In this document: positions 3,266 to 59,252 of the stretch, one piece after another
How positions within the stretch are numbered: the stretch's first letter is position 1
How the letters are laid out: every line of letters starts with the position of its first letter
Origin: Thuidium tamariscinum
Lineage: Eukaryota > Streptophyta > Bryopsida > Hypnales > Thuidiaceae
Direction of reading: 5' to 3'
NCBI GenBank assembly: GCA_947034885.2
Contig: OX344753.2
Location: 13,268,001 to 13,332,000, forward strand
DNA length: 64,000 nt
Program-made: the position numbers and the translations under genes
Notes under the pieces: model-generated
Databases searched by the model: none
Told to the model about the DNA's origin: nothing
Seen by the model: only the letters and a program-made list of their open reading frames with translations

Positions 3266-3304
<39 letters not shown>
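3266..3304. repeat. (TA)n microsatellite
   Basis: About 39 bp of TA dinucleotides inside AT-rich DNA, with no gene next to it. Confidence 0.85.
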
Positions 3305-3308
<4 letters not shown>

Positions 3309-4099
3309 GTACATGTATGATAATAGTTTTATAGTGTCTATTATATATAGGTATGAAAAAATTAGACATATAAGTTTTGTATATAAGATAGCCCAACTAT
3401 AAAAACAATATGAATGAATTTATAAAAAATCATAGTATATTAAAAATATACCCTTGGTATCTTTATATGTAAAAATACAATCATCTTAATTACTATAATG
3501 AAGGTAAATAGCCCTATATTAAATACCCTGTTTACGCACGTGTATACTTAAAATTACAAAGAGTAATCTCCCCGGGTGAACAAACAGAGTACGTCAAATA
3601 AATAGAAATAGAAGGTTGACTGTAGGAATCAGTTGGTGATCATTTGGGATAATGAATCAACTCATTTACAATATAGAAGGAGTAATGATTATAAATAGTA
3701 AGGGATGTCTTTTGATAAAAAATTCAATATCTTGTTTAAACCATGTTTTGACTCTACAAATATTTCTTCTTACTGCACATCACATATATTTTAAATTTAT
3801 CAAGACTATTCTTACAACCTCCAATGACCTTTACCTTTAAAATCTAAAAAATAATTCATCAACCTCTAAGATTTATCCAAACAATTTGATTTTTAAAGAT
3901 TTATCAATGTATTGTAGCCTCATGGCAAGATCAATGGAAAATAATTATTTTTAAGAATGCCAAAAAATAAATGAAAGGAAAAAAAATTACCAAATTTTGC
4001 AGAAATTATTTGACCAAGTTATTGTAAAATTAAAAAAATGTCAATTTCTAGGCTAAGGAAGTCTAAAGTAAAGTCAAAAAATAACCTACCTTCAAAAAA

Positions 4100-4615
4100 T
4101 ATTGATGGCAAAAAGGAGGATTTTCAATATTAACATTTAGTAAGAATGAAGGATGAAGAGGCTGTTTTGATAATGAAATGTATTGTCTTTTATAAATCCT
4201 CAAAGGATATGGGATAATTTGAAGATGGGAGCTTGACAACTCGTGAAAATATAGGAATTGTGTTTAATGTAGAATTTCATACCTTATTTTAGCATACTAG
4301 AATAACTTTTTTCAAAATAATTTGAACTATTAAAAGTTAAGAAATCAATCTTATTTTCATCTTTATAAATACCTTTGTGATTTAGAGTCTTCACAAAAAA
4401 TTATAGACAAAATTGAAAGGAGGTTTGAAAATGTAAAAAAAAAAACTTCCTTCTAATCCCTCTTTGAAATTTGTTTATAACTTTTGAATAGAGTCTTAAA
4501 ATTTCAAACGATTTCAGGATTATGATAGTTAATTTTTTTTTCTTGAGTTCTAAGTTTTTTGAAAAAAATTATTTTACTATGTCTAAATGAGGTTTGAAAT
4601 TGTATTATGAACACA
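4100..4615. repeat. foldback repeat, copy 1
   Basis: The right part (about 4455-4612) is a diverged reverse complement of the left part (about 4255-4440), so a transcript could form a long imperfect hairpin. Its left half matches the right arm of the foldback at 39805-40335 when that is read on the other strand, for example around ataatttgaagatg. No coding capacity is seen. It is a foldback or MITE-type element with no target duplication that I could find. Confidence 0.55.
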
Positions 4616-5842
4616 GTGCCTATGTTTGATGCAACTATGAGAGGTTGAACCTCTACTAATCCTAACCATTTACATGTCCCACATGTTTGTGCTACCTCCC
4701 ATGACACCATCTGTATAAAGGGCTTGTGTTACACCTTATGTCATGTATCCACTCACTTGGCATTTGAAACTTTGAGTCATATATTTTGAAATCTATTTAA
4801 TATAATGATGAATTTTTAAAAATTGAATTTGATAGTGTCAAAGCTACTTTGGGAACTATAATTAAATATTTGGCAAAAATGTGTTGATCTTGTCTTGTGA
4901 CTAGTGGGTATGGTATAGAATCTTTTTTTTAATCATTTTTCTTACTTCTTCTTGTAATACATATCTTCTTTGGATGATTTTAGATGTAGGTATGTTAATA
5001 AGTTTGCCAATAGAAAGTCTTCTATAATATATTGCATAGGTTTTACTTTGAATTTAGGATTTTAATACAAAGGTGCTAGAATGTGAGCCTAAAATCTTCA
5101 ACCCATGAGTCTAATAATCCAGACATCTATATTATAGGCACCTTCAATAGTTATAAGGTACCAACTTATACCTAGGTTTAAGGCTTGTCGGCTCATATGT
5201 TAGTGGCATAGGGTTCTAATAACATATAGTACTCCCAATTTGAATCATTATTGCACCTCCTACAAATTTTTTAAGCTTCAAAATAACCCGATATTCTACT
5301 TATATGGTGTTGAATTTGAGAATGTAAGGTTTAAATGTTATTTGATTTGTAAATGAAAGGTTTTAGTTATTCAATTATCAATTCAAAAGTGTATGTCTTG
5401 ATATAATTTAGTACATAATTTGTATTTTAGAAGTTTGATATGAAGTAGTGTATATAATTCTTTTTAAAAATCAATCTTCAATCTTGTACTATATACCATG
5501 GACTAAAAATGGTGTTGTACTAAATCTATGTTACTAGTACAAATTGTCTCGAAGTTAACACATAGATAATACAAAAGCATTTTATTTTAAATGGCGGGTT
5601 TATACTAGAGAATGCAAAGTATCCAATGAACAAGTTCTTGGAAGTCTATGACAACTAACTATAGCTAAAGAACAAAGAGTTGTAGATCTAAAAGAATTGC
5701 ACTCAACTATAATCCCTACAAATTTTTGCCCTAAGGTGTATTACTTCTTTCATAAGAATCCATTGTCATTCTTGCTAAACACCTATTTTCAACACTTTGA
5801 AACTTCATAATTTATTTATATGGTGTCCTAATAATACATAAG
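4616..5842. other. intergenic DNA with a dispersed repeat
   Basis: No gene is visible. About 5128-5222 resembles 18950-19060 in the spacer of the SAHH inverted repeat; both carry accttcaat followed further on by aaggcttgt. The rest is AT-rich sequence that I cannot assign. Confidence 0.4.
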
Positions 5843-7151: not shown

Positions 7152-7950
7152 GACACCCTTAAAAACAATTTTAAAAGCCTCACATGGCGGCAAAGTGTGC
7201 TAACGTGGCACACTATAGGGTGCAAAACATATAAGATAACATCTTGCATTGTCTATTACATGTTAGAACTTCTAATGAATGTAATGAAATCTTGGGGGGA
7301 GAACTTTCCATTTTTTAAAAACTATATTGTGCAATCAAATGCAAGGTGGTATTAATTAACTTCTCTTAAATTTAGATAATTTTAAAAAGTAAACTAGCAT
7401 CATTAAAATGGAATATTTCAAGTTATTTATAATGAAGGGTAGGTGATAATAGATAGCTTTACCTATTATTTTTTTTTCTAAAATAGGGTTGCCAAAAGGT
7501 CTCCCAAAATTTGAAGTTTTATGAACTATAATAAATTTGGATTTAAGAAACTAAGGGGCTAGATTCTATAAGTTGGGTTGGATTTCCTAAGTTGTAGAGA
7601 GAAGTCAAGCTACCAATTTTAGTGATAGTTAATGACAAGTGACAAGTAATCTACTGATTGGAAAAAAATTCTTCTTCCAAGTGAAATGGTATTGATGTGG
7701 GTAACTTTCAATATTAATACAAATATTAACAGTATAGTACTAATCCAATACTGAATCAATATAGAAGAAGACAAGCATAAATGATATATTGTAGCTACCA
7801 TAAATGAATATTGTCCAATGGCTTAGTAAACAATACCACAGCTTGGATAATGAAAATTATATGTTTAAGCATTGCAAAATATCTTTAATTTGATATTGAA
7901 AGTATGATTTTTATGAATAATTGTAGTAATGCACATTTGTAAAATTGGTG

Positions 7951-8683
7951 TATAGGGTCGTTGCAAGAAACACTTACCGGTTTTGTCTCAAAATGGCTCA
8001 AATTAGTGAGTCCTATGAGTCCTGTGACTTTTGGAATAAATTTTTTTTAAATTTAAAAAAATATGGATAATTTTAAGAGCAATGAGAATATTATGTCTCT
8101 TGAAATTCAGACCTAAGAAATTTTTTCTCTAAATGTTATAGACAATGGAAAATACAATGAAAATAGCTCTTTTTCACTAATTTGGTAAAAATAGTAAAAA
8201 AATGAAAAAAATGAAAATGAAAAATCCATTTTTTTCCAAGTAAAGGTCTTTCTTTTCCAACAAATTTCATCTTTGGAAAAAATAAATTTTATTCTCCACA
8301 CTTGCACAAAGTCATCCACTTTGACAACATGTGGAGGTTGAATAGTATAGTATTTTCAAAAAATCTCTTTGAGGTCTTGTGTAACTTTAGGTGAGGTCCT
8401 TGCATGCCAATTTTCAGCTCAAAATTTGCATTTTTGGGTCAAAAATAGGACTAAAACCCCCCAAAATGGCCAAAGTAGACACCCAATCGGGGGCAGTTTA
8501 AAAATAGTAAACTAATTTTGAAAAAATTAAAAAAATTACACAAATTGTAAAACTTTTGTAAGCACCTTCATTTCAAGTTTCAAGTTAAATGAACAAAAGA
8601 TGCAAAAGTTATGAGCAAAAAACTACCTACTAAAGGTCAAGGGGACAAAAAAAAGGACAAGTGTTTCTTGCAATCACCCTATA
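7951..8683. mobile_element. 733-bp inverted-repeat element, family E copy 1
   Basis: The ends are inverted repeats of about 25 bp that carry GCAAGAAACACTT on the left and its complement AAGTGTTTCTTGC on the right, flanked by TATAGGG and CCCTATA. The element lies inside the CACTA element and is therefore younger. A second copy of almost the same length is at 46305-47030. There is no transposase. The edges allow a TA or TATA target duplication, so a Tc1/mariner-type origin is possible but not shown. Confidence 0.72.
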
Positions 8684-10918: not shown

Positions 10919-11878
10919 TTAACCCCAATGCCCAAGGCCGGCCCAAAAGTGGCCGCACATATTCTAGAAGTCCAATTCAAAGTGTTGTAACTTTTTCATT
11001 CAATGTTCAAATTCAATAAAACTTGTCGGAAACATTGTGCATCCTAGTCTAGTTTGTGTGGTAAAAGTTTTCAAATCAATCCAAGATGTTAAGTTTTTTT
11101 TGCAAGCCAATCAAAGTTCACATGTTCAATTTGAATTCACTAAACTATATTTGATGGCTACAACTTTGGGGGCTTGTATCTCCTTCATCCAATCTTCGTT
11201 TTCAATAAAATTTATTGGATTATATTTTTCTTAAAGTCCAGTTATTGTGGTCAAATTTTAGTGGAAATCCAAGTTGTTTTGAATGTTTGGAAGCAATTTC
11301 AAGTTCAAAAACTAGACATTTTTGGATATCAGTGAACTTTGGCAGCTTATTTTTCTTTACATGGTGTTTGTTTCTTAGGAAAAGTTGCGCATTCTAGTCT
11401 TGTCTGTATGGCTAAATTTTCAGATCAGTCCAAGAAGTTATGAGTGACTTAGAAGCATTTTAATAGAAGGAGGTGCAGTCATAGATGTGTTTTTTGCACT
11501 CATTTTTGCTATTTTTTTGACATTTCAAAGTCATTTTGCAAATGATTCGAAGCATTTGAATGAATTTTTGTTTGAATTTTGCTTTTGAATCTCTTTCAAG
11601 TTTCAAGTTTTTTCATTTGAGTAGGTTTAAAAATCAAATTTCACCTCCAAATGTGTTTTTAAGAAAATTTCAGCATCTTTTAATTTTCGAATACTAAAAC
11701 ATTGTAATCTTGCAATCTATGTGGTCAAATGACTCCAAATTTGATCCACATCATCTACAACATACACACTAGAAGATTGTACGGTTGAGATTTTTATACC
11801 ATAGTGACATGTAGACTTATATTGCTTGAAAAGCAATGATGTTTTTGAATCCAAAGAGGCCTTGGGCCTTGAGGGTTG
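10919..11878. mobile_element. TTAA-flanked element, family B copy 1
   Basis: It starts TTAACCCC at 10919 and ends GGGTTGA at 11878, with inverted ends that both carry CCAAGGC-type sequence. The interior of about 950 bp matches copy 2 (59564-60521) over its whole length, including a shared block around cttgcaatctatgtgg. No reading frame of note is present. The right TTAA has decayed to TTGA. TTAA edges with CCC ends point to piggyBac-type mobilisation by a transposase encoded elsewhere. Confidence 0.68.
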
Positions 11879-12104
11879 ACCCTTATAAGACAGGCTAGAA
11901 ATTATGGAAATCATTTCTTTTGGCATCGTGTGAATACTAGGTTTACATAAATCCAAAAGCACTCATTGGAAATCAAACTTCTATACAAGACCTCTCCTTT
12001 TCATGCAAAATATTGAGGTTAAATAGTTGGACTTCTAACCTACACAAAAGGATTCTCTGTCATTCATCAACTAGAAAATGGCCGCAACATCATTTATGAG
12101 TTAA
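11875..12104. mobile_element. TTAA-flanked element, family C copy 1
   Basis: It lies directly between family B copy 1 and family C copy 2. The left edge is TTGACCCTTATAAGAC, a variant of the copy 2 edge, and the right edge is the TTAA at 12101. Internal landmarks match copy 2 in order: aaatcat, a CAAAAG word, then an aaga run and ccttttc. It is about 220 bp and non-coding. Confidence 0.5.
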
Positions 12105-12338
12105 CCCTTAAACGACGCAGGGGTCATCCAAGAAATCATCTTTTCTGAAACTATGGGAATCATTGGTATTAAAAAAATTCAAAAGTGCGCATTTGAAGTC
12201 AAAGAATTGTAGAAGATCTTCCTTTTCCACCCCTAATTCCGAGGATGAATGCTTGCAATTCTGTCCTGTACTGCAAAAGACTCTCCTATTGATCAACCAT
12301 AAAACAGCTCCAATGTTGTTTAGGGGTTTAGGGGTTAA
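12101..12338. mobile_element. TTAA-flanked element, family C copy 2
   Basis: TTAA is present on both sides (12101-12104 and 12335-12338). The ends are inverted: CCCTTAAAC on the left, and CCCCTAAAC when the right end is read inward. The 230-bp inside has no reading frame. It shares its left TTAA with copy 1, so two members sit head to tail at neighbouring TTAA sites. Confidence 0.62.
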
Positions 12339-14647: not shown

Positions 14648-15549
14648 CACTAGCACCTCCAGACCTTCGACGAACGCCAAGCCAGTCCCCAGAAACAGTG
14701 GCACAGTCAGACATAGCAACCGACATGCAGTTGCATGCTGATTTGATTCAACCGACTACCAGCTGCTGATCATAACCAACCAGAAAACACATTCGCTTCC
14801 ACTATCTCGCAGCAGCATGTTCCCCACAGAAGAAACCACATTGCCAATCGTAAACACAACATGATCCAAAAACTCCAAAGATAAGGGAAAAAAACCGGAA
14901 TCCACAACAAACAGACACGACAAAAACCAGCCAAAAGCAGAACGGTACACCGAAACAAAACAAACAGCCGCCCAAAACAAACGAAACCTCCGTGACTTCG
15001 CTATCACTAGGAAAAAACACACTTCGGAGGAAACTCAAACATATGCCCTAACCTGATGATGAAGACCAACGGCACAACAACAACCGTTCCAGTACGCAGA
15101 AGACCAGCGACAAAACAAAAAACAGTACCACAGGAAATCCTACAAGCCGCTCTCCCAAATTCATGCAAACCTCAACCACGACAGTTCCCAAACGAAATCC
15201 ACAACGACACAGGCGTCACACGAACACCACTGCAAGACACCAAGGTCAAATTACCATACCACTCAAAAATTCGAAAACAAAAACGGAATGAAGCTACCTT
15301 CCAAACACAACATCACCAAATACACAATACAAGCGACTTCGGGTCCAACCATTCATTTGAGGAAAGACCTCCCATTTCGTATATGATAGGTATTGAAAAA
15401 AAATGTCATCCTTGCCGATCATAACCCGAAACACACATCCGGGATAGGCACAGCAAGTAAGATGCTCTCAGAAAAATAACGAGAAAAAAGGGTACCGCTC
15501 TGGGGAAAAAAAAGATCCTAACATCCAAGCCAACAAAGAAGACACGCGT

Positions 15550-17410
<1,861 letters not shown>

Positions 17411-17588
17411 CGCGGCAAGCAACCTTCTCTTCCTGCCGAGGGCGAGAGCTGAGATAGAGAAAGAGCGAGCCGCAGCGGCCGCGGCGGAAGACCACGACAC
17501 GGATCGGTCGATCGATCGGGAGCCGAGACGCCCGAGGAGGTGAGAAAAACAGAGTGCACACGACGGGAACCCCTGCGCAGCGAGGCTT

Positions 17589-17597
17589 CTTTATGGT
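17589..17597 (-). promoter_or_regulatory. TATA-like box of the left SAHH copy
   Basis: The minus strand reads CCATAAAG about 180 bp before the start codon, followed by GCCTCGCTGCGCAGG. The mirror gene has the same and the third copy has CCATAAAC followed by the same block, so this is the longest shared upstream patch. I infer a core promoter with an untranslated leader of about 150 bases. Confidence 0.4.
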
Positions 17598-18422
17598 GGT
17601 GAGCTAAGCCCTACAGCAGATCTTTTCACACTGCCAGTGCTCTCCGTCGCTCCCGGAAGTGAGATGAGCTTTTTCGTCCCTCACGCGGCATCTACGCCAT
17701 TGCAGCTTATTTGCCGGATCCCCAGATCTGGTTCTTGGGCCGGGGAACGAAGCGCAATCCCTCCCTCGGGGAGAGTCGCTCGCAGCGTCGTCGCCTCGCA
17801 CAATTATTTGCCATTGGGGCCTGACAGCCATTTCTCTCCTGGCTCACCCGCAGGAGGCTTTTCAGGTTGGATAGGAAAGTTTACTGGGACGAATAATTCA
17901 CGTGGCCCCCTGTGTGCGCGGCAGAGGGGCGGACGGAGGGCAACTCCAAGCCATTTTGAGGTCGGCGTGGGTTGAAGGTAGACAAGTCTCTTTCCATCCT
18001 CACTAGGGTGGCCCGTGCCGTTGCCACGGTCTAAAAGAAAAGAAAAACAACAGAATAAACAATTTTTTAATTTTTTTAATGTATAGAAACTTCAAAATTC
18101 AATAACTTTCATGCCGTAGGTTGGAACACCATGAATCAAAGCCCGTACACCCCTCCTCGCCGAGGGCTTTCCAACGGTAACAAACACGCACCCGGGGGAC
18201 TCACGGTCCCGGAGATCTCAACGTAACAAACATCCAAACAAACAAACAACGTATCTTCATAGGGGGATTTGGAATCGGAATATCATGGGGTCAATTCCAA
18301 GGGGGTTCACATATTTTCCAAAAGTTTGCACTTGTGTCATGGATGAAACCCATAAATAATTTTGCTGAATTAGGTAAGTGGTTTGCTGTGAAATTAGAAA
18401 ACTATTTGTACAATTAGTTCCC

Positions 18423-19676
18423 CGAAAATGACGACCTTAGATTCAATAGATACTTGTCCAACTGAGCTTCTTTAGAATGCTGAAAAAAGACCTTTAATTA
18501 TTGCACATTTACACTTTAGAAGGAGTTTTTAAACCAAAAGTTTTCATAATGCTAGAAGAGTACTAAATTCCTCTTTCAATGGAAAATAAGTTCTAAGATG
18601 GCATAAGATGTTTTTTTGAAGCGTCTAGTTGATTGTTTATTCCTAAACTATAGAAAATATAGGAACATTGCAACATAATCAATCTCAGAATGTTGGAAGA
18701 TTGCAACTTCTAAAAATGGTAGTTAAATAATTTCCAAAATGAAAAATGGAAAATATTATAATTTTTTGTATTAATTGTTATTTTTAATTTTTAATTTAGT
18801 TTGTTTTTGAAAAATTTATCTCTTGAATTTCAAAAAACATCAAATGTATATTTGATTTTAATCCGAAGCATTTTGTTGAACAAGAAAACCATTTTGCGAT
18901 GAAAGAAGTATATTAGAAATACCCATCTAATAAGCATCTTTTAAGGTTACAAGGTACCTATGTTATAGGGACCTTCAATTATTATAAAGTGTCCACTTAC
19001 ACTTAGATTGAAGGCTTGTAGGCTTGCATGGTGAGGCTTACATGCTAGTGTTATTGGAACTTAGCAATGTTGAAAAAATAAAAAGATGATACCACTAGTA
19101 TGAAAAATCTACATGATAAAAGTATCTAGAAAACTTTCAATTTTCAAATAGGAACTAATCTGGCAGTTCAAACCCATCCTTTTGAATTAGAGGCAATGGA
19201 CAATATTATTTGTTAACATCCTATAAGGTGCTTTAAAAAAATCCTCTTCAATATAACAATAAGTGAAATTGAATGAAAATTGAATTGACACAACACTTAC
19301 TTGAATAGTTCTAGTTTGGATAGGACGAGCTTACAATGAAGATTGCTTCAAAGCTTTTGAGATTTCCTAAGAGTAGACGAAATTAATTAATTAAAGGTAA
19401 TGACAATTGAAATTTCCATCTGACTAAAAGTAAAGAAATACAACGTAGTACAATTGCAATTTTGACTCTAGCTATGACTGGATTAGGCCACCAAGACACC
19501 TTTCTCTAAGCTAAGGGAAACTTGTCTAATCTGTCAACATCCAAATTTGTACAAAAAATACCAAAATATCTTGAATATTTTCACAAAATCAATGCACTAT
19601 CCCCATATGGAGGTTACGTGTCAATGCATGATTGAGAAGTACTTCAATGCTAGTAGATACATAGAAAGCTAATCCT
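18423..19676. other. spacer between the SAHH arms
   Basis: This 1254-bp AT-rich stretch is not inverted and separates the upstream ends of the two SAHH genes. It has no gene. About 18950-19060 is a dispersed repeat also present at about 5128-5222. A spacer this size between near-perfect arms is what remains after an inverted duplication and keeps the palindrome from being fully self-complementary. Confidence 0.7.
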
Positions 19677-20502
19677 GGGAACTAATTGTACAAATAGTTT
19701 TCTAATTTCACAGCAAACCACTTACCTAATTCAGCAAAATTATTTATGGGTTTCATCCATGACACAAGTGCAAACTTTTGGAAAATATGTGAACCCCCTT
19801 GGAATTGACCCCATGATATTCCGATTCCAAATCCCCCTATGAAGATACGTTGTTTGTTTGTTTGGATGTTTGTTACGTTGAGATCTCCGGGACCGTGAGT
19901 CCCCCGGGTGCGTGTTTGTTACCGTTGGAAAGCCCTCGGCGAGGAGGGGTGTACGGGCTTTGATTCATGGTGTTCCAACCTACGGCATGAAAGTTATTGA
20001 ATTTTGAAGTTTCTATACATTAAAAAAATTAAAAAATTGTTTATTCTGTTGTTTTTCTTTTCTTTTAGACCGTGGCAACGGCACGGGCCACCCTAGTGAG
20101 GATGGAAAGAGACTTGTCTACCTTCAACCCACGCCGACCTCAAAATGGCTTGGAGTTGCCCTCCGTCCGCCCCTCTGCCGCGCACACAGGGGGCCACGTG
20201 AATTATTCGTCCCAGTAAACTTTCCTATCCAACCTGAAAAGCCTCCTGCGGGTGAGCCAGGAGAGAAATGGCTGTCAGGCCCCAATGGCAAATAATTGTG
20301 CGAGGCGACGACGCTGCGAGCGACTCTCCCCGAGGGAGGGATTGCGCTTCGTTCCCCGGCCCAAGAACCAGATCTGGGGATCCGGCAAATAAGCTGCAAT
20401 GGCGTAGATGCCGCGTGAGGGACGAAAAAGCTCATCTCACTTCCGGGAGCGACGGAGAGCACTGGCAGTGTGAAAAGATCTGCTGTAGGGCTTAGCTCAC
20501 CA

Positions 20503-20510
20503 CCATAAAG
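20503..20510 (+). promoter_or_regulatory. TATA-like box of the right SAHH copy
   Basis: CCATAAAG lies 179 bp before the start codon and is followed by a block kept in all three SAHH copies. This would place the transcription start at about 20535. Confidence 0.4.
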
Positions 20511-20688
20511 AAGCCTCGCTGCGCAGGGGTTCCCGTCGTGTGCACTCTGTTTTTCTCACCTCCTCGGGCGTCTCGGCTCCCGATCGATCGACCGATCCGT
20601 GTCGTGGTCTTCCGCCGCGGCCGCTGCGGCTCGCTCTTTCTCTATCTCAGCTCTCGCCCTCGGCAGGAAGAGAAGGTTGCTTGCCGCG

Positions 20689-22549
<1,861 letters not shown>

Positions 22550-23511
22550 ACGCGTGTCTTCTTTGTTGGCTTGGATGTTAGGATCTTTTTTTTCCCCAGA
22601 GCGGTACCCTTTTTTCTCGTTATTTTTCTGAGAGCATCTTACTTGCTGTGCCTATCCCGGATGTGTGTTTCGGGTTATGATCGGCAAGGATGACATTTTT
22701 TTTCAATACCTATCATATACGAAATGGGAGGTCTTTCCTCAAATGAATGGTTGGACCCGAAGTCGCTTGTATTGTGTATTTGGTGATGTTGTGTTTGGAA
22801 GGTAGCTTCATTCCGTTTTTGTTTTCGAATTTTTGAGTGGTATGGTAATTTGACCTTGGTGTCTTGCAGTGGTGTTCGTGTGACGCCTGTGTCGTTGTGG
22901 ATTTCGTTTGGGAACTGTCGTGGTTGAGGTTTGCATGAATTTGGGAGAGCGGCTTGTAGGATTTCCTGTGGTACTGTTTTTTGTTTTGTCGCTGGTCTTC
23001 TGCGTACTGGAACGGTTGTTGTTGTGCCGTTGGTCTTCATCATCAGGTTAGGGCATATGTTTGAGTTTCCTCCGAAGTGTGTTTTTTCCTAGTGATAGCG
23101 AAGTCACGGAGGTTTCGTTTGTTTTGGGCGGCTGTTTGTTTTGTTTCGGTGTACCGTTCTGCTTTTGGCTGGTTTTTGTCGTGTCTGTTTGTTGTGGATT
23201 CCGGTTTTTTTCCCTTATCTTTGGAGTTTTTGGATCATGTTGTGTTTACGATTGGCAATGTGGTTTCTTCTGTGGGGAACATGCTGCTGCGAGATAGTGG
23301 AAGCGAATGTGTTTTCTGGTTGGTTATGATCAGCAGCTGGTAGTCGGTTGAATCAAATCAGCATGCAACTGCATGTCGGTTGCTATGTCTGACTGTGCCA
23401 CTGTTTCTGGGGACTGGCTTGGCGTTCGTCGAAGGTCTGGAGGTTCTAGTGGGAATGGAAGTGTTGGTCGTTGTGGGTGTTGGGTGCGTGTGCTGTCGTG
23501 GTTGATTTGAT

Positions 23512-25404: not shown

Positions 25405-26710
25405 TTAACCCTTGAAACCCTAAACCGTGCCTTTTGGCAACATAGTGATTTTGGACAAGTCATTACAAATGGAGTATTTTTGTTTTTTATTCCTTCAAAA
25501 TTTCACAAAACATTTTTCCTTGGAGTTTCTTGAAGGCCGAATAATTTTAATACAATTTGATTGCATGGTTAAAAAGTTATGGCATGATATGTTGTATTTT
25601 TTATTTGGTAGGCAGTCGAGGCAGTTTATAAAGCTTCTTTTAAAATTCCATTTTAAAGAAATAAAAAATTGAAATTGGATTATTAAATTTATATCTACAT
25701 GAAAAGCTTTGAATCATTCCATTTTAACTAATGAGTCAAAAGTTATGAGGAGTCATAAGAGGATTTTCAGCTACTGTAAGAGACTGCGAGTTCCCAGACT
25801 CTGGGAACGCATCGGGAACTCTGGGAACGCGATGCTGATATGGTCGAGCGACTGCCATGTCAGAAAAAAATATTTTTTTATTAATTTTAATTAAATATTA
25901 AATATTTTTAAAATATTTTTTTGAAAAAAAAAATATTTTTTTAAATCATTTTTTTTCTCTTTAATACATTCTGAAGTTTTTTGGAAAAAAAAAATTTTAA
26001 TTTTTTTTTTTCAAAATTCAAAAATTCGGACCAGCAGGGTGCTGGTCTGCAGCAGTGGGAACAATTTCGGGGAACACCCCTGAAACGGTCTCCTGGGGGC
26101 CCAGAAATCCTCTTATGTTTAGTTTGGGGTAGTTTACGAGTAGTCATAGAATTTCCACCCTTCAAAAAAACTTGAAGTCTTTTATTTTATAGTTTTTTGA
26201 AAAATAATTAAAAAATTTGGTGAAGGTTTTTTATTACAATATAACAAGCATTGGATTGGCATTTTTCATTTTCATTAATAAATTTTTCACAATTTAGTGT
26301 TTTGTATAATTTTTTACTTCTTTCTGTTTACTATTTTTTCTTATATGTTGTCCAATTCCAAATGACTTGAAATTTTTTGAGCATATAGATAACTTGTATT
26401 GAAGGATTAATTCAAAGAGTAACCACCATTTTGAACATTTTTTTATACAAATGTGACCTTCTAAAGTGAGGTTGCTCAAATTATTCGCTTGGATAAAAAA
26501 ATGATTTTGTCAATTCAAATGCTAATATCTTGCAATCTACACTATGAAATTTTTTGAAATTTTTTCCACATCTTTTCAAACCACCTTACTACTAGATCCT
26601 ATGATTACATGTATCAAAAAAACTTCTTTTCTAAACTTTTGCACTAGTATTAGAAATTGTAGTTTTGGAGTGTTTTTGGTGACAACATAGTCAAAACCTT
26701 CAGAGGTCTA
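25405..26710. mobile_element. TTAA-flanked element, family A copy 1
   Basis: The left edge is TTAACCC at 25405; the right edge, around 26700-26710, has decayed from the TTTAGGGGTTAA seen in other copies. The interior aligns with copies at 29308-30237, 53066-54404 (opposite orientation) and 59253-60689 (opposite orientation), for example around the shared block tttttattacaa. There is no reading frame of note. A second MITE (25756-26115) sits inside it. The family appears to depend on a piggyBac-type transposase from elsewhere. Confidence 0.68.
25756..26115. mobile_element. MITE nested in family A copy 1
   Basis: The ends AGAGGATTTTC and GAAATCCTCT are inverted and flanked by TA on both sides. 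Copy 2 of family A lacks the insert at the matching place, so this is a clean later insertion of about 356 bp. Inside are repeated words around CTGGGAACGC. A Tc1/mariner-type MITE is the simplest reading. Confidence 0.68.
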
Positions 26711-29307: not shown

Positions 29308-30237
29308 TGAACCCCCAAAGTCCGAAGCATGTTTTCCAGAATTATAGATTTTTTGGGCAGCTCACTACAAGTGTAATTTTCATTTTTTTTCTCTGAATTT
29401 TTCATATATGTATGCGAGGAGTAGCTTCAAGGTAAAACAATTTTCATAACTTTTGACTTGATGGTTGAAAAGTTATTGTATAATATGTAGCTTCTTTATG
29501 AGATCGGGTAGCTTGGGCAGCTCAGAAAAAATCACTTTTTGAAGAAATAAAAATTGGAAATTGGTTCTCTAGATTTATATGTACATTGAAAGCTTTGAAT
29601 CACTCTATTTTGATCAATGAGTCAAAAGTTATGAGAAGTTTTAGTTTGTCGGCACTTATGGAATCTCTACCCTAAAATAAACTTTGAAGTCTATTATTTT
29701 TACTCAATTTTCAATATTTTTGATGAAAAATAAAAACATTGGGTGTATATTTTTTATTACAACATTAAAACCATTGGGATTGACATTTTTCAATTTTATA
29801 AATAAATTCTAAATAATTTAGTATTTTGAATCATTCTCTACTTCTTTCGACTAACAAATTTTTTTCTGTATGTTTCACGATTCCAAATGATCTAAAAATT
29901 TTCAAACATATAGTAAACTTGATTTGAAGAATGAATCCAAAGATGCACCACCATTTCAGGCATTTTTCATACAAATATGAGCTTGTGAAGTGTAGCTGCC
30001 CATTTTTTCACAGGGTTAAAAAAAGTATTTTTGTCAACTCAAATGCTAATATCTTGCAATCTACATTGTGAAAATTTCTGAAATTTTTTCCCCATCTTTC
30101 CAAACCAAAATACTGCAAGATCCTATGGTCACATCTGTCTAAAAAAAATTTTGAAATTTTTTTTTGGTACTTGTATTAGAAAGGGCAGTTTTGGAGTGTT
30201 TTTGGTGAAAACATAGTCAAAAATCTTTAGGGGTTAA
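29308..30237. mobile_element. TTAA-flanked element, family A copy 2
   Basis: The right edge is intact, CTTTAGGGGTTAA ending at 30237; the left edge has decayed to TGAACCCCC at 29308. At about 0.93 kb this is the copy with no visible nested insert and serves as the empty-site reference for the insertions in copies 1, 3 and 4. Non-coding. Confidence 0.66.
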
Positions 30238-31516
30238 TATCTTTGTAAATTTATAAAAATTATATATGTTGTGATAAAATCTCATTAAAAATTAGCATAA
30301 TGTTTTGTATGCTAATATAGTGCCCTATCAAGTTTGAAGTCATTCCAAGATTCCTAACCATTAGAATCAGCACCAATGTGGAATTCCTAGAAAATTTACA
30401 AATTGGCGGCGGGTTGACCAATGTATGAGGAATTAATGATGTCCAATAGAAGAAAATAAGGAGACATTCCCTATTTCCACATACATTTCTAACAACCTTG
30501 GCTTGAGAGATTCTTTGAAAAAAGCTAATTCCAAAAGTCAGAGTTTTGACTTTTCTTTAAAGCTACCAAGAGTGAATTTTGCACTTACAAACAACTTAGG
30601 ATGTAGGGGTTGGGATTCCCTAGGACTCAATAGGGCCTTTTGAACGCGATGGCCTAGACAATTTTTGATTTGTTTCCTAAAAGGTAGAGAGGGTCAACTC
30701 TTAGTTTGACTTTTTAATAGTAATTAGTGGTAATCCTAGGTTAATTTCGCAAATATCTTTTGAAAAATCAAAGATTGGATTTGGTCAAGATCTTATTTCT
30801 TGCATGAAAAATCAATTTTGAACTAAAAAAAGTCAATTTAGAAATATCTTTGGGTTAAACACTGGGGGTGCACTTCCATTTATTTAGCTAGTGATATGTG
30901 ATCAAATGAAAGGTCAATTTAACTAGGGTGAAGATAGATTTTAGAAACGACTTAGAAAAAAATTAGCATCATCATGATGTATAGAAGATATATATAAATA
31001 ATGAAGGGTTGGCAAAAATAACGATTTTAAAGTTATTTTTAAGTTCTTTTTAGATTTACAATAGGGTTCCCTAAAAGAAAAAAGAAAATTGAAACTTTTG
31101 TGAACTATAATACCAATACTAGTAGTCTAGAGTGTAATTTTGTATAAAGTATCCAAAGCCCTCGATCCAATGTCTAGTATATTAAGGCATTTACAATTAT
31201 AGAATATTATATGCTAAAGGTAGTCGTTGAGGTCTTGATGGATGAAGAAAGCAGTGGATTAAAACAAACTGGAATACTTGGTTGTCTTAGTGAATGTAGT
31301 TAGTCATTGAATTTAATATTCAAACTTTAGAAAGAGTCCGCAATTGAATTTTAAATTAGATTCCAAATCATAGAATGATGAACTTTCAAAGTAACCTTCA
31401 ACGTGAATGAACTTTGGATTCTAAGTTATTGAAGCTTTCAAAGAAGTTCATGAATTGCACTTTTTTTATAATAATTTCTATAAGTAAAGTTCTTAATGCA
31501 GGTTTGCTAGTAGATT
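30238..31516. other. intergenic DNA, no gene seen
   Basis: AT-rich sequence with no protein-like frame and no repeat ends that I could pair. Confidence 0.45.
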
Positions 31517-31822
31517 GCAAATTTTGTTAAAATGGCGACATTCCTTATGCCATTTTTTAGACTGCACAATCTAAACTAAAAACTAACATCTAAAACTAGT
31601 ATAGATTTCAAACATCTAGGACACATTTATATGCTCCAAATCTATGATGCATTTAGATTTGAGACCACAAGGGCTAAAACATCTTGGATTGGTATAGATT
31701 TTAGACATCTACAAGACAAATAGATTTAAAAAATCTATGATAGTTTTAGATTTTAGATTGCATGGTCTAAATTGTCAAAAGTGTCAAACTAATGGAATAC
31801 CATCATTTTAACAAAATTTGTC
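31517..31822. mobile_element. MITE-like element, family F copy 2
   Basis: The ends share a perfect 17-bp inverted repeat, CAAATTTTGTTAAAATG and its complement. Internal landmarks match copy 1 at 811-1091, including tgccattttt near the left end and repeated tagattt words. The last bases of the right end became part of the target duplication of the MULE-like insertion that follows. Confidence 0.65.
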
Positions 31823-32133
31823 ATCTAGGGGAGGACACTTCCTGTTTTTTAATAACCTATGTGCAGCAGAAGATAGGGTACATTTAAATAATCTTGGGTA
31901 AAATTTATAAGAAATTTATATATAAAATAGGGGACATTAAAAAGGCAAAGTGTTTTTAAAATAAAATACAGATGATAATATGGCTGATTTTTCCGCTTTA
32001 TGGTAGAATAGGGGCTCTTTTAATGTTGCCAAGTAATGATTACAAGTAATTGATAGCCCCCCTAAAAATATCCCACCGCCACATGTGGGTCCCCCAAATA
32101 CACAAGAAGTGTCCTCCCCGGGTTTGTCATGTA
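31817..32133. mobile_element. MULE-like MITE with 11-bp target duplication
   Basis: Inverted ends GGGGAGGACACTTC (from 31828) and GAAGTGTCCTCCCC (to 32119) enclose about 290 bp. The flanks TTTGTCATCTA (31817-31827) and TTTGTCATGTA (32123-32133) match at 10 of 11 bases, which fits the 9-11 bp duplications of Mutator-like elements. Three extra bases between the right end and its flank are unexplained. No transposase. Confidence 0.55.
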
Positions 32134-33313: not shown

Positions 33314-34416
33314 CACTAGAAAAACGTGTCCGCTACAACCAACTGCACTGCAACTACATGTCCTATGCAATTGTTGTGCAACTACAACCCTCTATATTTG
33401 TACCAAATCGATGTTTACATTATTGTAGTTGCAAAGTAGTCGCAAAGTAGCTGCAAAATGAAATTTAGAGTTTACAAGAATGAGAAAAAAAAGAATCGTA
33501 AGGTATTCTACATCCAATGTTTATTACAATTGTTGACTAGTATCTATGCAATTATTGTATGACTGTGCAACTATTGTGCAACTACTATGCATTTATGAGA
33601 CTTTTGTGTGATTGTGCAACTATTATGCAACTACTATGCATTTGTGAGACTTTTGTGTGACTGTGCAACTATTGTGCAACTACTATGTATTTGTGCAACT
33701 CCTATGCAACTATGCGACTATTGTGCAACCACAGTGTGACTATACCACTAGTTGTCATCTACTCTACAAGTATCAAGAGTACCATTAAATTAGCCATATC
33801 CAAATCATAAGTTATAGCATTTTTATATATGAATTTTGATAATGAAAATCTAATATTTCTATACTTTTGTACATTTTTACAATTTGTAGATTTTTATAGT
33901 TAATAGAAATCAACAAATATTTAAAGTCCAAAAAATTTAAAAACTTGGGAAATTGTAAAATTTTCTATAGTAGTAAATTCTTTCAATATCAATATTGGAA
34001 TTGCTAATCTAAAATAGAAGATAGATCTAAAATTCTAAAATCTACAAATTGTTGAAATTCAAACTTCAAAATCTACAAATTTACAAGTCTTAGATAAATT
34101 GCATATAAATTGCAAACAAGTCACAAACAAGTTGCAATGAATCACAAATGAGTTGCAAAGCATTTGCAAATTGAGTTGCATAAAAGTTGCCACAAGCAAG
34201 TTCTACTTCAACGACTACACTAGAATTCATTGATGAAATTATACAAACGTTGTTGGATGAAAAACAACCTTGCTGCCTTTTGTAACTACTCTACAACTAT
34301 TGTGACTTGCTCACTGCAACAGAGGTCTCTAAATTTTCACCCACTTACAAACATTTGATGCAACTATAAAACTTGTTTCAAACTCTACTTGCAAAAACCC
34401 TTATTTTCTTCTAGTG
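33314..34416. mobile_element. small CACTA element rich in TGCAACTA motifs
   Basis: The left end is CACTAGAA and the right end is TTCTAGTG, which ends at 34416, giving 1103 bp. Flanking trinucleotides (TGT and AAT) do not match, so the target duplication has decayed or been rearranged. The interior is packed with TGCAACTA-type words, mostly on one strand in the left half and on the other in the right half, plus a 49-bp tandem unit. Dense subterminal motifs are typical of CACTA elements. No transposase frame is present. Confidence 0.72.
33590..33725. repeat. 49-bp tandem repeat inside the small CACTA element
   Basis: Just over two copies of a 49-bp unit containing gagacttttgtgtga and two TGCAACTA-like words. 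The unit multiplies the presumed transposase-binding motif. Confidence 0.7.
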
Positions 34417-35760
34417 AATGGCCCTTCATTTTCCATCCATCTAGTTTTAGGGCAATGAGGGGGTCAATTCACCCTTGTATGTTTAGGCACTATTAGACCT
34501 CTTACCTTACCTTTTTGATGTTGTTAATCCCAATTCATGGCTTTTGGATGACTAGAAGATGATTTGGAGAAAGCCTAGAAACATTTTTTCATCCATTTTT
34601 TGCTTGTTGACCTTTCATGGAGGATTAAGACTTTTGAAAAGTACCTAATTGACTTTAATTTGTAGTCTTGCTAATGTTTGTCTTCACATGAATGAGAAGT
34701 TAGTAAAAAAAATGAATCACAAAATATGCTATTTTAGTATATTTCGGAAAGTTGTTGCTCCTTGCTCTAAATCTGAAATTTCTTTACAAAAATGATTTTT
34801 TTTTTGAATTTAAGTCCAATTAAAAAATGAAGGTCTTCTATTCTAGTTATCACTTCAATTAAAATTTTGAAAAAAATCGTAATATTGAATATTTTATTGC
34901 ATATTGAACTTTGGATGTATTTTCAATGTCTATTGTATTTTAATTACAAAATGACACAGAAATTGAGTTTGCACCATAATGTTTACTAGTGTAATATACA
35001 CCCATGGTGAAATTTTCAAATTTTTTGAAACAATTTTTCATTTAATATGATTTTTCCTCTTTTTTTCTTCAGAAATTCTCCAAAAAATCAATTCTCCACA
35101 AAAAATCTAAAATTTCTGTGAAGTGTAGAAGACATGTAATTTCATCATTGAAAAATAAATATAAAATTTTTCATACATATCTAGATAAAAAAATGGCAAC
35201 AAATTGAGTGATGGACAATGAAGTTTGAAACCAGTGGTTATAGGTCCGTCCTTTAAGGGTTAATTTAAATTTTAAAAAATACCTTTCACTACCCTTTTAC
35301 TGCTCTCCGTACCCCATTGTACCAACTCAGCAACCCTAAGGGCCTCCTTACATATATCAGTGGGCAAGGAAACTTCACAGGGAGTGCTATAGGGGAAAAT
35401 ACTCATTGCACTTTCGTGTAAACTTAGTGGGTGGGGAGGGATTAAATAAGAAAAGCACACGTATGAGATTCTCTCGATCTTGCCAAGTCTCTTTGTCCAC
35501 TGGAGTCAGTGAAACTTCTCCTCCTCCTTTCCCATTTGCCGAAACCCAGCAAGACAGTTGCCCACCGGGCCAACATGTAAAGAGCCCCTGGCTCCCCTGA
35601 GGCTTGGCATGTTCCCCCAACGAACTCACTTCCGTCAAATCTACCGAATCAACAGAATATTACGAATCAAACGAATAAATTAGAAGTATACGTTCAAAGG
35701 GACACCAGAGGCGCGTCAGTCACCAACTGTTTCCCGCCGCTTCGTTCCCAACCCGGACGA
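34417..35760. other. intergenic DNA, one-sided TTAA end
   Basis: No gene is visible. CCTTTAAGGGTTAA at about 35252-35265 looks like the right end of a TTAA-flanked element, but I find no matching left end. From about 35400 the composition becomes more even towards the gene at 36447. Confidence 0.35.
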
Positions 35761-38101: not shown

Positions 38102-39804
38102 ATCTCCAAACCATCCAAAGGAGAAACTTATTCGGGTAAAAGCAATCTTTTAACTTGAGGTACTTCAGTCGTGAATACGCTCAGAATAACTGAGAGTTTG
38201 GGAAGATAATGCAGTGTGCACAGTTGGTAATGCATTTGGTACTACTGCATTACGATGTTGACTTGGTAGACTATTGTATGGTAGCAGTGGTTTTCATTAT
38301 ATTTTCTTACATTCTTTAGGAATGTACGAACGAACCATGCACTCTGGCATTGTACAATGTACATAACTACCTGTACTGAAATGCAGCAGCTTTCCCACTG
38401 TTGCTGGGTGAACTAGGTATATTTTGATGTAAGAATCCAGCACTGTGGAGCCACCGTGCAGCCCATGGGTGTGCAGTATGCTGCTATATTAAAGTTTATA
38501 ATACAGTTTACAATGTTCAGAGTTCATGATATTTGTACAGAGAATGCGGCTTGGGTATTGTAGCATATTTGCAGAGTTGTATTAGGTTTCTCTTAGTCGT
38601 AGTAGATACTGTGAACCTTCTGTAGTCTGCATAGTTGCATTTTGTTTCCTAATGTAACAGCATTTGCGCTTCGCAAAACTGGGCATTCGTTAATTGATTA
38701 GTGTAAAATATTTAACAGCAAGTTTCCTCATTTTTGTTTTGGCCTTTATATTTGTCTACATGCGTGGAAGTTTAGAAGTGTGAGTATACTTTCCTCGAGA
38801 AGTGTGCCAGTGCTAGTATGCCGCAGAGGTGCACGGGGCAAATGTAGTAAGGGAGGAGGCTCAGAAACCGCTCATTTTTAAGGGCTGGTCCGCCTTTTTC
38901 ATGTATTTTCTTAGATGGGAATATTTGTAGCTCATTTTTCAGTTAAAAGAGAAATAAACGAGGAATGTAACACAAGTTTCATAATTTTCAGAGCATTTAC
39001 AAATTACTTGTGAATTTTCAAATGAAATTTGGCATAGGCCCCTATTTGTGATTCGGAGGTTTAGAAAAATCACACATGCTTGGATTGGAAAAAAATATGG
39101 CTTTGCTCAAAAACTAGCATTGCAACATGTAAAAAGTAATAGAGATGATTTCTAAAAGTGACCCTTTCTAAATCTGAAATAATGCTTGAATAAACCATCA
39201 TTTTAGATTTTTTAACATTTGTATGAAGGTAGTTGGACTACCAAATATTATTTTGAATGAAGTTAGTAGACACCTATCCACTTAGTTAAGAAAAAATCCA
39301 TTCTGGTTGTTAAATAATCCATTGAAGAAGTAAAAGACAACTCTTATTATGCTTTTATATAAACAAGAGTCCATTTTTCCACAATTTGGTATCCATTTTA
39401 GAGCCACCTATGAGACAGTTTGAAAAACCTGCTGCATTTTCAAGCCTTTTCCTATATATTGAAAGGCCCTTCGATTAAGTAGAGGATTTGCGCCTTGCTG
39501 CAATGGTACATTTATTTGAAAATATAATGATTCTCTCTTGAAAAAAGATTTTTTTTGAAATTCAACTTTTTGGACAAATAAATAGTTGTAGTTTCATTCT
39601 TTAGCCTAGGTTCCCTATCCTATCATAGCTACTCACTTCATGCATGAATCCCTCACATGGTTTCTAGAACCATTTATTGTGCGCAAGGTATGAAAAAACT
39701 ATTTATATAAGTGGGGTGGTGGGGTGGTAGGAGGTAAAATAGTCCATGTGGAATATGTTTTATTCATTAGAATTTGTGAGCTCAACCTTTCTTAGTCAAA
39801 TTCA
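38102..39804. other. 3' flank and intergenic DNA
   Basis: The first few hundred bases probably include the 3' untranslated region of the preceding gene. Beyond that the DNA is AT-rich, without genes or repeat ends that I could pair. Confidence 0.45.
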
Positions 39805-40335
39805 AAGTAAGAATTGTATTCAAAATAGAATTTTAGACCTCATTTAACCATTGTAAAATAACTTTTTCCCAAAAAACTTTGAACTATGGAAAGTTGGCAA
39901 ATCAAAGTGACTTTCATCTCCAAAAATTTGTTTGAGATTTGAAGTCTCCAATCAAAAGTTATGGATAAAGGTCAAAGAGGGGTTCAAAGGATCATTTTTA
40001 TTGACATTTTCAAATATCCTCTTCAAGTTTTATCCATAAATTTTTTTAAAGACTTGAAATGACAGAGATTCTTGGAGATGAAAGTTACCTTGATTTCACA
40101 ACTTTTCATAGTTCAAACTCTTTTAGAAATTTTTATTATAGAATGCTTAATTGAGGTCTAAAATTTCAATCCACATACAATTCCTACATTTTGATAAAGA
40201 ACCATCACTCTCTCATCTTCAAATTATTTCATATTTTTTGGGGATTCATGATAGACAATGAATTCTACTATAAAAATGACCTCTCCACTCTTCATCAGCA
40301 TAGATTGTCAATGAAATAATTTGATTATTTTATCA
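39805..40335. repeat. long foldback repeat, copy 2
   Basis: The left arm (about 39807-39974) and the right arm (about 40018-40188) are diverged reverse complements: tttgaactatggaaagttgg on the left answers ccaacttttcatagttcaaa-like sequence on the right. The outer right part continues to resemble the copy at 4100-4615. A transcript could fold into an imperfect stem of about 170 bp. No coding capacity. Confidence 0.65.
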
Positions 40336-42138
40336 ACAAAAAATTTCTTAATGGTAGACGGTCAAATAATGGATTGGCATTTGACTCAATGGTTTTCAAT
40401 GAATTTTCTAATTTTTCAGCAAATAATTTTAAAGTTCACCTAAGGATTCAACTATTTACTTCTAAAATTTGCAAAAGATTTTGCCATTGGATTTTTGAAT
40501 CAATTGAAGATGAACTTGTCCTACATCTATAATATTCAACAGAAAATCACAAATCCCTATCTCTGCATTTCATCTTTCTATTGTAAAATACAATGTCCTA
40601 CGAAAACTATCATTTAGCTTCTTATTACAGTCCATCCTCAATATTTGTCAACATTTGGCAGTAAGAAACTTGTAACAATTATGTAGTGTTGATGTGGACA
40701 ATTAGTAACACTTACATAGATAATACTTATGTGACTTCAAAATTTATTATAGTAACACTTTTTTTAAGCAGAAGATGAAAATATCCAAGATATGAATGCC
40801 ACCATTCATTTAAATAGGGATAGAAGAACAAACCTTAAGTACATTCTTATTGATCAAAACTTCTAATTTCTATACATTGTCAAATCACAAATTTGTCCCA
40901 CATCAACATAACATTGTTTATATTTACCAATGGCATATGCATTAGAATACAAAGAAATTGATGCAAAGAAGCTTGAAGTTTTAATTCCAAAGAAGATTAT
41001 GGAGTTTTTGGTGTAAGGTAAGTCTACCTATGATAAGCAAAATGCCACACAACTCATCACAAACAAAAACTTCTAATGATGCACAATTCAAATTTGGGTG
41101 TGCATCATCAATATACTTTAGACTACAATGGGCACAATGGCATTTAGCCTATCATAAGCAAAATTCCCTAATTGTCTCCATGATGACATATATCCAATAT
41201 ATGATGGAGATGGGATAATATGTAAAGTCATCCACAAAAATTTTATTCAATTTCATCATTATATATGAAGGGGTAATCATCGAAAAAAACATAGTTTTTC
41301 GGATTTATCTTCACAGTTGGCAGTTAATATTTCAGTTGGGAGTGTTTTCTTTGGAGTAATAGGCGGAGCACAAATTTCCTGAACAAGTATTGAATGCAAA
41401 TTTTCACACTCGGGTAACATATAACGAGTGGACTGTTTCACCACTCGGATGCAAACCGTTATTGCACATACTGTATTCATTATATCAGACAAATTACCTT
41501 TCCCAAAAGCCAATTCTCTACCAGAATGTCTTACCCCAAGTACTGAAAACGGTAATAGATTGATGGTCAAGTGCGCGGTTAAAATTTAGTGCGCAGATGA
41601 GACGTCAACCTGTCACCTACACATTACACAACTGCAAAGCGATATCCAGTCTGATATTGCTTTAATTCAAATTGCAATAATTCAGACGGAGATCCAAGCT
41701 TCGTATGACCTATGAATAGCGCGTCCACAACAGATACTGCAAATCTGAGTAGGCATAAACAATCAATTCACCAGGCCTCAAAATAAATAGCATGTGACAA
41801 ACTAAAGAATCTTTTAGAACGAAAGAAACCACTGTAAAAAAGTAAACAAACAAAACTTCGAACTCCCACATTACAACTCGTGACTAATAGATGAAAACCT
41901 AAAACTTCACACTTAAAAACCCGACATTATGTCAATCCAGAGTCAAGGCCACTGTCAACAGAAATCACATCAAAACAGGTCGAAAGCAACAACATTCCTT
42001 CAGATCTAACTATCAGCAAGCACAAATACCTACATATACTAGTCCAATAGCCGCCGTCAGGTTCAAGTAAGGGCACCCAAGTAACTTCAAAGAAAGCCCA
42101 TCAATGGAGCAATTTCTTCCAGGTAAATGATATGTAAA
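40336..42138. other. intergenic DNA left of the third SAHH gene
   Basis: From about 41280 the base composition is more even. A minus-strand frame at 41277-41570 was examined and not recognised. Nothing else is supported. Confidence 0.4.
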
Positions 42139-42292
42139 AAAAATGTCATCCTTGCCGATCAAAACCCAAACAATAATCAGTCGGGAGTTATCAAAGCAAG
42201 TAAGATGCTCTCAAAAAACAAAAACAAAAAGGGTACCGCTCTCAGAAGAACCAAACTACCAACAAAGATTGCCATAACCCAAAGCAACACGA
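42139..42292 (-). other. 3' untranslated region of SAHH copy 3
   Basis: Three blocks match the 3' flank of the other SAHH genes in the same order: aaatgtcatccttgccgatc, gcaagtaagatgctctca and gggtaccgctct. The sequence between them differs, so this flank diverged while the coding part stayed the same. Confidence 0.65.
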
Positions 42293-44155
<1,863 letters not shown>

Positions 44156-44320
44156 CGCAGCAAGCAACCTTCTCTTCCTGCCGAGGGCGAGAGCTGAGAT
44201 AGAGAAAGCGCGAGCCGCAGCGCCGCAAATGCAGACGACACGGATCGATCGGAGGCAGAAACCAAAGAAAAACAGAGTGCCCACGACGAGAAACCCTGCG
44301 CAGCGAGGCTTGTTTATGGT
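44156..44320 (-). promoter_or_regulatory. leader and core promoter of SAHH copy 3
   Basis: CCATAAAC followed by AAGCCTCGCTGCGCAGG on the minus strand repeats the TATA-like patch of the other copies, and the last 50 bases before the ATG are nearly the same. Further upstream the similarity fades quickly. Confidence 0.4.
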
Positions 44321-44494
44321 GTCGGGTGCCTTGCCTGAGAGCCCTAACTTAAGATGCGCAACACAGCGGGTTCGTATGTGGTGACCCGGATTCTCAGATC
44401 TGACGTCTTGCAAGGTTTCGGTAGAATTTGCTCAATGGTTTTCCACATCAGGCTTTATTCAGGAGACATTCCCAGGTCTTTTGGAAATACTGGG

Positions 44495-44878
44495 TAAGGT
44501 AGAACCACCCATAATCGATCATTCAAGGTATTCTAGACATGATCTGCTGTAGTGGAATGATAGAATTCAAGGGCATTGTAAAAATTTTGGTAATTTTGAT
44601 ATATGAATTGAAACTACTATGAATTTTGAAAAACAAAAAGTGCACCAAACTAATAGCCAATCTCTAAACTCTCCCAAAAGTGATCATTCAAAAAACTACT
44701 TTCCCACTCATTGCTTCTTACTTTCTTGTTTACTACTTTGGAATATGTGTCATGAATTTATTAGTCCCAACTTTGAAAAGGAGAAAAAAAAACATTCTAA
44801 CCTTAATTGGAAACAAATTACTCTACAAGTTTGCTATGGGGCACCAGTTGGGATTTGGGAATGGGTGGTTCTAACTTG
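44495..44878. mobile_element. TA-flanked MITE, family D copy 1
   Basis: The left end is TAAGGTAGAACCACCC and the right end GGGTGGTTCTAACTTG, an inverted repeat with two changes. The interior matches about 47350-47730 and, in opposite orientation, 55211-55641. The right TA has become TG. It is about 380 bp, non-coding, and its ends suit a Tc1/mariner (Stowaway-type) element. Confidence 0.7.
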
Positions 44879-58727: not shown

Positions 58728-59252
58728 CCTTCTTTGAAAATCCGTCTGCCGAGCGCAACAGCTTCAAGTGCACTTCGTTGCGGACTTGCGGCTTGTCTCC
58801 GACCCATCCATCTACGTTAATTCTTGTCTAAAGTGTAAACCCGCTGAACATGAGAGCTTAGGGTCAATTTTGGGTACACTCATGATTGGCTCTACTAAAG
58901 TTTATAGTTTCTTTATATGGTGCCTCCAAATGCTTGTCCAAAGAAAGTAGAATTTTCTTTTGACATCCAATTAATAACAAGATCCAACAAAAGATGAGAC
59001 AATTTAATAATGGAAATCAAGCTCAAATGCTTATTCAATAGATCATAAGTACACTTACTTAGGTGTAGTATAAAAATAAAAATAAAGATGTTGTATCAAA
59101 AGGGGTATTAGACCTAAATTTTCACATTTAACCTCAAAGCACTAAACAACATTTTTTGGCAAGATAGCAGTTTTGGGTAGTTCAGTATGAATTGAGTTTC
59201 TATTTTATTTTTTTAGTGAAGTTTTCACACAACATTCTTGTAAAGAGTATCT
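58728..59252. other. upstream region of the 56952-58727 gene
   Basis: Probably holds the promoter of the minus-strand gene in its first few hundred bases. No TATA box is obvious. The rest is AT-rich and unassigned. Confidence 0.35.

Follow-up and report, generated by a model that had tools for sequence, protein, structure and literature searches.

The window analysed here, a single stretch of DNA of 64 kb in all, carries three families of dispersed elements (A, B and C) that lie between TTAA sites and have CC..GG ends, and these are likely to be ancient non-autonomous elements of the piggyBac type that were moved in trans. Our confidence in this reading comes mainly from the base found outside the TA core at the ends of the elements, from the ends themselves and from the insertion site of one element (B2). 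An earlier note on this DNA had suggested piggyBac-type transposition; our results bear out TTAA as the target and CC..GG as the termini, and membership of the three families in the piggyBac superfamily is, as judged from sequence, likely only.

Contents of the window

The window contains no N and has a GC content of 37.4%. A gene for S-adenosylhomocysteine hydrolase is present in three copies (one copy was analysed with Pfam, and the best match among solved structures is 3ond, which we take to be the enzyme of lupin). There is also a copia-like polyprotein inside 60961-63995, and this content fits a plant nuclear genome. Two of the hydrolase copies (14648-18422 and 19677-23451) are inverted copies of 3,775 bp with a single mismatch between them, which points to palindromic duplication of very recent date or to an assembly effect, and the third (42123-44321) is 92.7% alike across about 2.2 kb. 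The copia-like element (60690-64000) has its pol on the minus strand, reaches near or beyond the end of the window and probably interrupts A2, the second copy of family A. Other repeats include a MITE-like family (810-1106 and 31514-31837) with inverted ends near GCGAATTTAATTAAAATGG in its first copy, which are not of the TTAA/CCC kind, a long repeat pair (3974-4709 and 39720-40488) that is 67% alike with part of its length also matching in the opposite orientation, a short repeat pair (5127-5210 and 18958-19040) and a minisatellite (33555-33729) with 3.6 copies of a 49-bp unit. Searching the window with Rfam at gathering thresholds gave no matches.

Copies of families A, B and C

Self-comparison and alignment of the families recovered the four substantial copies of family A that had been claimed earlier and added a remnant of a fifth. 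A1 (53066-54404, plus strand) is 1339 bp in length including a foreign insert and has the structure TTAA-CCCCTAAAG...CTTTAGGGG-TTAA, while A4 (29308-30237, minus strand, 930 bp) is free of large inserts and has an intact left end (TTAA-CCCCTAAAG) with TGAA at its right. A3 (25405-26710, minus strand) has an intact TTAA at its right end at 25405 and a worn left end (TAGA). The left end of A2 (59253 to about 60690, plus strand) reads TTAA-CCCCTAAA and the copy is interrupted by B2; its right limit was placed where the homology ends and the copia-like element starts. The remnant A5 (59128-59256, minus strand) represents a right end of family A (TTAACCTCAAAG) that was severed at one of its internal TTAA sites when A2 inserted there; by BLAST it matched the A1 right end (67.9%, E 5e-12) and those of A3 (E 3e-11) and A4 (E 0.001). 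Without their inserts A1, A3 and A4 have pairwise identities of 72.9-76.3%, and the four left ends of the family have 74.8-79.4%. The foreign inserts in A1 (53393-53779, about 387 bp) and in A3 (25754-26112, about 359 bp, with inverted ends ATAAGAGGATTT) may be other small transposons.

The same comparisons bore out the two copies of family B and the three of family C that had been described. B1 (10919-11879, plus strand, 961 bp) has the form TTAA-CCCC...GGG-TTGA, with a left end reading CCCCAATG and internal direct repeats spaced about 178-189 bp, and B2 (59564-60521, plus strand, 958 bp) has the form TTAA-CCCTAGA...TCTAGGG-TTAA and is nested within A2; the two are 78.1% identical over 934 aligned bases. 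In family C, all on the plus strand, C1 (12101-12338) reads TTAA-CCCTTAAA...TTTAGGGG-TTAA, C3 (1204-1420) reads TTAA-TCCTTGAA...TTTATAGG-TTAA, and C2 (11876-12104) has its TTGA in common with B1 and its TTAA in common with C1. C3 was matched by C1 (BLAST E 7e-19) and by C2 (E 2e-15), C1 and C2 gave no BLAST match to each other at E 0.01, and the identities in the alignment were 60.7% for C1-C2, 64.4% for C1-C3 and 62.3% for C2-C3. At the right end of C1 (12320-12338) TTTAGGGG stands twice ahead of the TTAA and resembles the plant telomere unit; the doubling may have arisen through slippage within the terminal repeat.

B1, C2 and C1 abut one another in a chain, TTAA-B1-TTGA-C2-TTAA-C1-TTAA, in which neighbours have a single TTAA between them, in one case worn to TTGA, and this is exactly the pattern that insertion into a flanking TTAA would leave. 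Recent tandem duplication was considered as the origin of this chain and is unlikely, as C1 resembles C2 no more than either of them resembles C3. Divergence between copies within the families is about 20-40%, wear is seen at several ends, and A1, A2 and A3 have each received other DNA. By these signs A, B and C are old, and no sign of recent activity of any of them was seen within the window.

Nature of the insertion site

The proposal of the earlier note that the target is TTAA rather than TA or TTA is supported by our analysis. Intact TTAA stands at both sides of A1, B2, C1 and C3. Leaving out the four ends at shared sites (B1 right/C2 left and C1 left/C2 right), the base outside the TA core was T at all 14 remaining ends (p 9e-8 with T at 0.31), a result which held with the 12 ends that needed no register shift (p 9e-7), the registers of A3 left and A4 right having been shifted by hand, and with one end for each of 9 insertion events (p 3e-5), these p values being somewhat optimistic because several ends were first spotted via their TTAA. 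This uniformity argues against a plain TA target, and the intact sites rule out a duplication of 3 bp, since TTA at the left and TAA at the right form no direct repeat.

Nested insertions allow sites to be compared before and after insertion. B2 lies within A2 as ..actTTAA-B2-TTAAggcaag.., with both junctions visible and a gain of exactly one TTAA-sized unit, and the unfilled site is a single TTCAA in A1 (acTTCAAtgcaa), A3 (ccTTCAAtacaa) and A4 (tcTTCAAatcaa). The left end of A2 sits at a TTAA inside A5 that is still present in A1, the homologous place reading ggccTTAAagctact in A1, ggccTTCAagaaact in A3 and accTTGAagctact in A4; this site is half visible, with its left junction only, as the copia-like element probably breaks off A2 near 60690. 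An empty site with a duplication other than TTAA, which would have spoken against piggyBac, was found in neither of these insertions, one complete and one half visible. Rare duplication variants of animal piggyBac include TCAA, according to the excerpted text of one source (PMC10813416). A plain C/T difference would be the simpler account of TTCAA in A1, A3 and A4 against TTAA in A2, and we prefer it to a TCAA duplication because both copies around B2 read TTAA. Empty sites alone cannot separate TTAA from TA where the outer T and A already existed, and it is the count of outer bases that separates the two.

Terminal sequences

Seven sites had been listed previously (53066, 54401, 59253, 59564, 60518, 12101 and 12335) and each of them proved to be a TTAA with CCC or GGG next to it. 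All of the ends examined have TTAA or a worn version of it, the worn sites being A3 left (TAGA), A4 right (TGAA) and B1/C2 (TTGA). C3 left and C2 right depart from CCC, with TCC and CTC respectively. Inverted ends of the type CC[C/T]..GG are seen as CCCCTAAAG at both ends of A1, as CCCTAGA at both ends of B2 and as CCCYTAAA in C1, and all three families have CCCYTRRA-like ends. The terminal inverted repeats of A and C are short, at about 8-9 bp.

We summarised the ends and their site as a motif, TTAACCCYTRRA, which was composed after the ends were known, and the counts that follow therefore describe and do not test, a less circular check being the count of outer bases given above. Perfect (12/12) matches numbered 9 in the window, whereas 60 dinucleotide shuffles held 0.13 on average and never more than 1; matches of at least 11/12 numbered 14 against 3.3 (maximum 7), and those of at least 10/12 numbered 61 against 44.9 (maximum 58), which is near chance. 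Of the nine perfect matches, seven belong to family A or C as ends of copies, and the motif scan left two unpaired, TTAACCCCTAAA at 51532-51543 on the plus strand and TTAACCCTTAAA(GGACG) at 35252-35263 on the minus strand. Among the 12 pairs listed there was no partner for the ends at 35263 (minus), 51532 (plus), 37019 (minus) or 47095 (plus). A candidate pair at 3859-4648 has TCAACCTCT ends with two site mismatches. As a control we looked at six further dispersed families (3974-4709, 3304-3527, 7924-8680, 810-1106, 7295-7533 and 44501-44812, each with its partners), and none had TTAA/CCC ends when aligned and judged by eye; an AGGTTGA lies inside each of the two copies of the 3974-4709 family, yet their homology continues beyond it.

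A subterminal module probably common to families A and B

The three families had been described as unrelated inside. This stands for C, which matched neither A nor B within the window by BLAST or profiles. For A and B the description probably does not hold, as on sequence grounds the two appear to be related at one end, the left of A with the right of B. Leaving out the scores of members against the profile of their own family, which they had served to build, a profile of the A left end gave its highest non-self scores in the window to the two B copies (13.8 bits with E 6e-4, and 9.6 bits with E 0.01), the best of 20 shuffled windows giving 8.7 bits, and both matches lie on the reverse strand in the right subterminal region of B at about equal distance from the TTAA end. 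In the other direction a profile of B ranked A2 and then A1 highest among non-self matches with A4 lower, behind two unrelated places, the scores of 7.7, 6.7 and 1.8 bits all lying under the best shuffle (9.1).

The core of this module is a 13-mer, TAGATTGCAAGAT (53237-53249 on the plus strand in A1), with six occurrences in the window that all fall in A (four) or B (two), 172-175 bp inside the TTAA edge on the left of A1-A4 and 161-162 bp inside that on the right of B1 and B2. Pairwise alignments of A left with B right ends rose above all 200 shuffles in one case of eight, with seven of the eight falling at the same place, and the control of A left with B left ends gave none of eight above all shuffles, although A1 scored 29 and 30 against the B left ends versus 30 and 27 against the B right ends. 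We call the relation between A and B probable because these pairwise tests are mostly weak and the profile is clearer in one direction. Such a common module is what would be expected of elements bound by one enzyme.

Search for a transposase

In line with the earlier note, no transposase was found by searches of the whole window with tblastn and a two-sequence profile, or by Pfam on 40 of 518 pieces. The moth and bat piggyBac transposases gave a best E of 0.81 against the window by tblastn, and a profile built from the two enzymes gave a best E of 2.1 against 2,049 six-frame pieces of at least 20 aa. Pfam was applied to 40 of the 518 pieces of at least 45 aa, including 20 inside or overlapping A and B, and found no transposase in them; its matches were to the hydrolase with its NAD-binding relatives and to copia domains, besides sub-threshold matches. 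No recognisable coding was seen for the elements in the pieces searched. When the subterminal region of A was used as exact DNA patterns there were no matches in collections of viral contigs and genome contigs, and the left end of A1 had no match in phage records. Six peptide patterns from one sequence found no close relatives of moth piggyBac in viral contigs, a search which distant relatives would escape.

Proposed mechanism and alternative explanations

The mechanism we propose is that a transposase encoded elsewhere would recognise the short CCCYTRRA-like ends, and perhaps also the subterminal module of the A left and B right ends, and that the elements would be cut out and joined into TTAA sites with duplication of the TTAA. 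Repeated use of this process would give rise to the nests (B2 in A2 and A2 in A5) and to the B1-C2-C1 chain with its single shared TTAAs. The enzyme would belong to the piggyBac superfamily and act in trans, its excision would be without footprint and its activity would have ended long ago.

A number of other explanations can be weighed against this. With 432 TTAA in 64 kb and matches to TTAACCCYTRRA at the level of at least 10/12 near chance (61 versus 44.9), the TTAA and CCC could be thought a coincidence among unrelated repeats, but the perfect matches (9 versus 0.13), the outer T at 14 of 14 ends and the nesting of B2 with exact ends make this very improbable. Duplications of 3 bp, TTA or TAA, are common in plants and are contained in TTAA, which brings to mind PIF/Harbinger (Tourist-like) elements; TTA-A.. 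at the left and ..T-TAA at the right yield no 3-bp direct repeat, however, so that this reading is contradicted at A1, B2 and C1 and is scarcely credible. A Tc1/mariner-type enzyme that duplicates TA, uses ACCC ends and happens to prefer TTAA contexts has in its favour that T-TA-A sites are formally identical under the two models and some mariner-type enzymes favour AT-rich contexts. Under such a model the outer bases should be free, whereas all 14 ends had T where its expected frequency is 0.31, and ACCC starts are atypical of plant Stowaway/mariner elements, which start CTCCCT; we consider it unlikely.

Another superfamily that duplicates TTAA, such as Kolobok or Sola3, or an undescribed TTAA-specific plant transposase would also fit the target site, no transposase being in view in the window. 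Sola3 makes TTAA duplications. Kolobok makes them too (PMC9587614), but its termini are given there as 5'-RR..YY-3' as opposed to 5'-CC..GG-3' in A, B and C, and the excerpted text of that source lists it for green and red algae with no land plant named. CC..GG ends have been assigned to piggyBac and IS1380 (PMC10045372, in excerpt), and an origin in another TTAA-duplicating superfamily seems to us improbable.

The piggyBac-type reading is the one we favour. There is perhaps an even chance of a wider proposition, that this lineage of land plants long carried its own piggyBac superfamily, mobilising several non-autonomous families that have a common subterminal recognition module beside otherwise different bodies and that readily insert into TTAA at or inside other members to give chains with shared TTAA. 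A native land-plant piggyBac lineage, if true, would widen the known range of the superfamily and raise the question of descent versus horizontal transfer, and an intact copy, if one exists, might offer a plant-adapted seamless transposase. The common subterminal module would provide a testable prediction of what the enzyme binds.

Comparison with known systems

Widely used as a transposon for genome engineering, piggyBac is for the most part regarded as a lineage of animals, fungi and protists. The view that it is little reported in land plants is fair without being absolute, since a table for Ceratopteris richardii gives 1,230 PiggyBac-labelled elements totalling 122,417 bp (PMC6890710), a grass genome (Stipa) has one PiggyBac-labelled element of 75 bp (PMC8319324) and piggyBac is stated to have been isolated from plants (PMC10813416), all according to excerpts of these sources. 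Several plant genome papers mention piggyBac, and among the literature matches listed, in their excerpted text, we found no native family that had been characterised from a land plant. In appearance and placement A, B and C resemble piggyBac MITEs, and they are likely to be piggyBac-like elements in an unusual host, piggyBac labels being already known from land-plant repeat tables.

The Trichoplusia ni piggyBac (DDE_Tnp_1_7) is alike in its TTAA target and CC..GG ends, and the ends of B2 begin CCCTAGA, as those of the moth element do. The elements described here differ from it in having no transposase in view, in their land-plant host and in the short terminal inverted repeats of A and C. In the excerpted sources, a 4-bp target site duplication and CC..GG termini are the marks of piggyBac (PMC10045372), and among animal families CCCTT is the most conserved start with terminal inverted repeats from 4 bp up (PMC10813416). 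Moth piggyBac has also been reported to work in rice cells with excision restoring TTAA (PMC10905368, in excerpt), and plant cells can therefore support piggyBac chemistry. The likeness to the Ceratopteris richardii repeats is that of a label in a land plant, known from the table entry alone (PMC6890710), and Kolobok is alike in its TTAA duplication while its RR..YY ends are the reverse of those of A, B and C (PMC9587614, in excerpt). The piggyBac-type CMITE of coral, as described in the excerpted text of PMC2872659, has a CC[C/T]T terminal motif with TTAA and resembles A, B and C in being without its own transposase and in its TTAA duplications, its ends, its arrays and a nested form. It is about 100 bp in length with a conserved core, whereas A4 and B are 0.93-0.96 kb, and its arrays are attributed to replication slippage, whereas here C1 and C2 are not each other's nearest relatives when C3 is compared.
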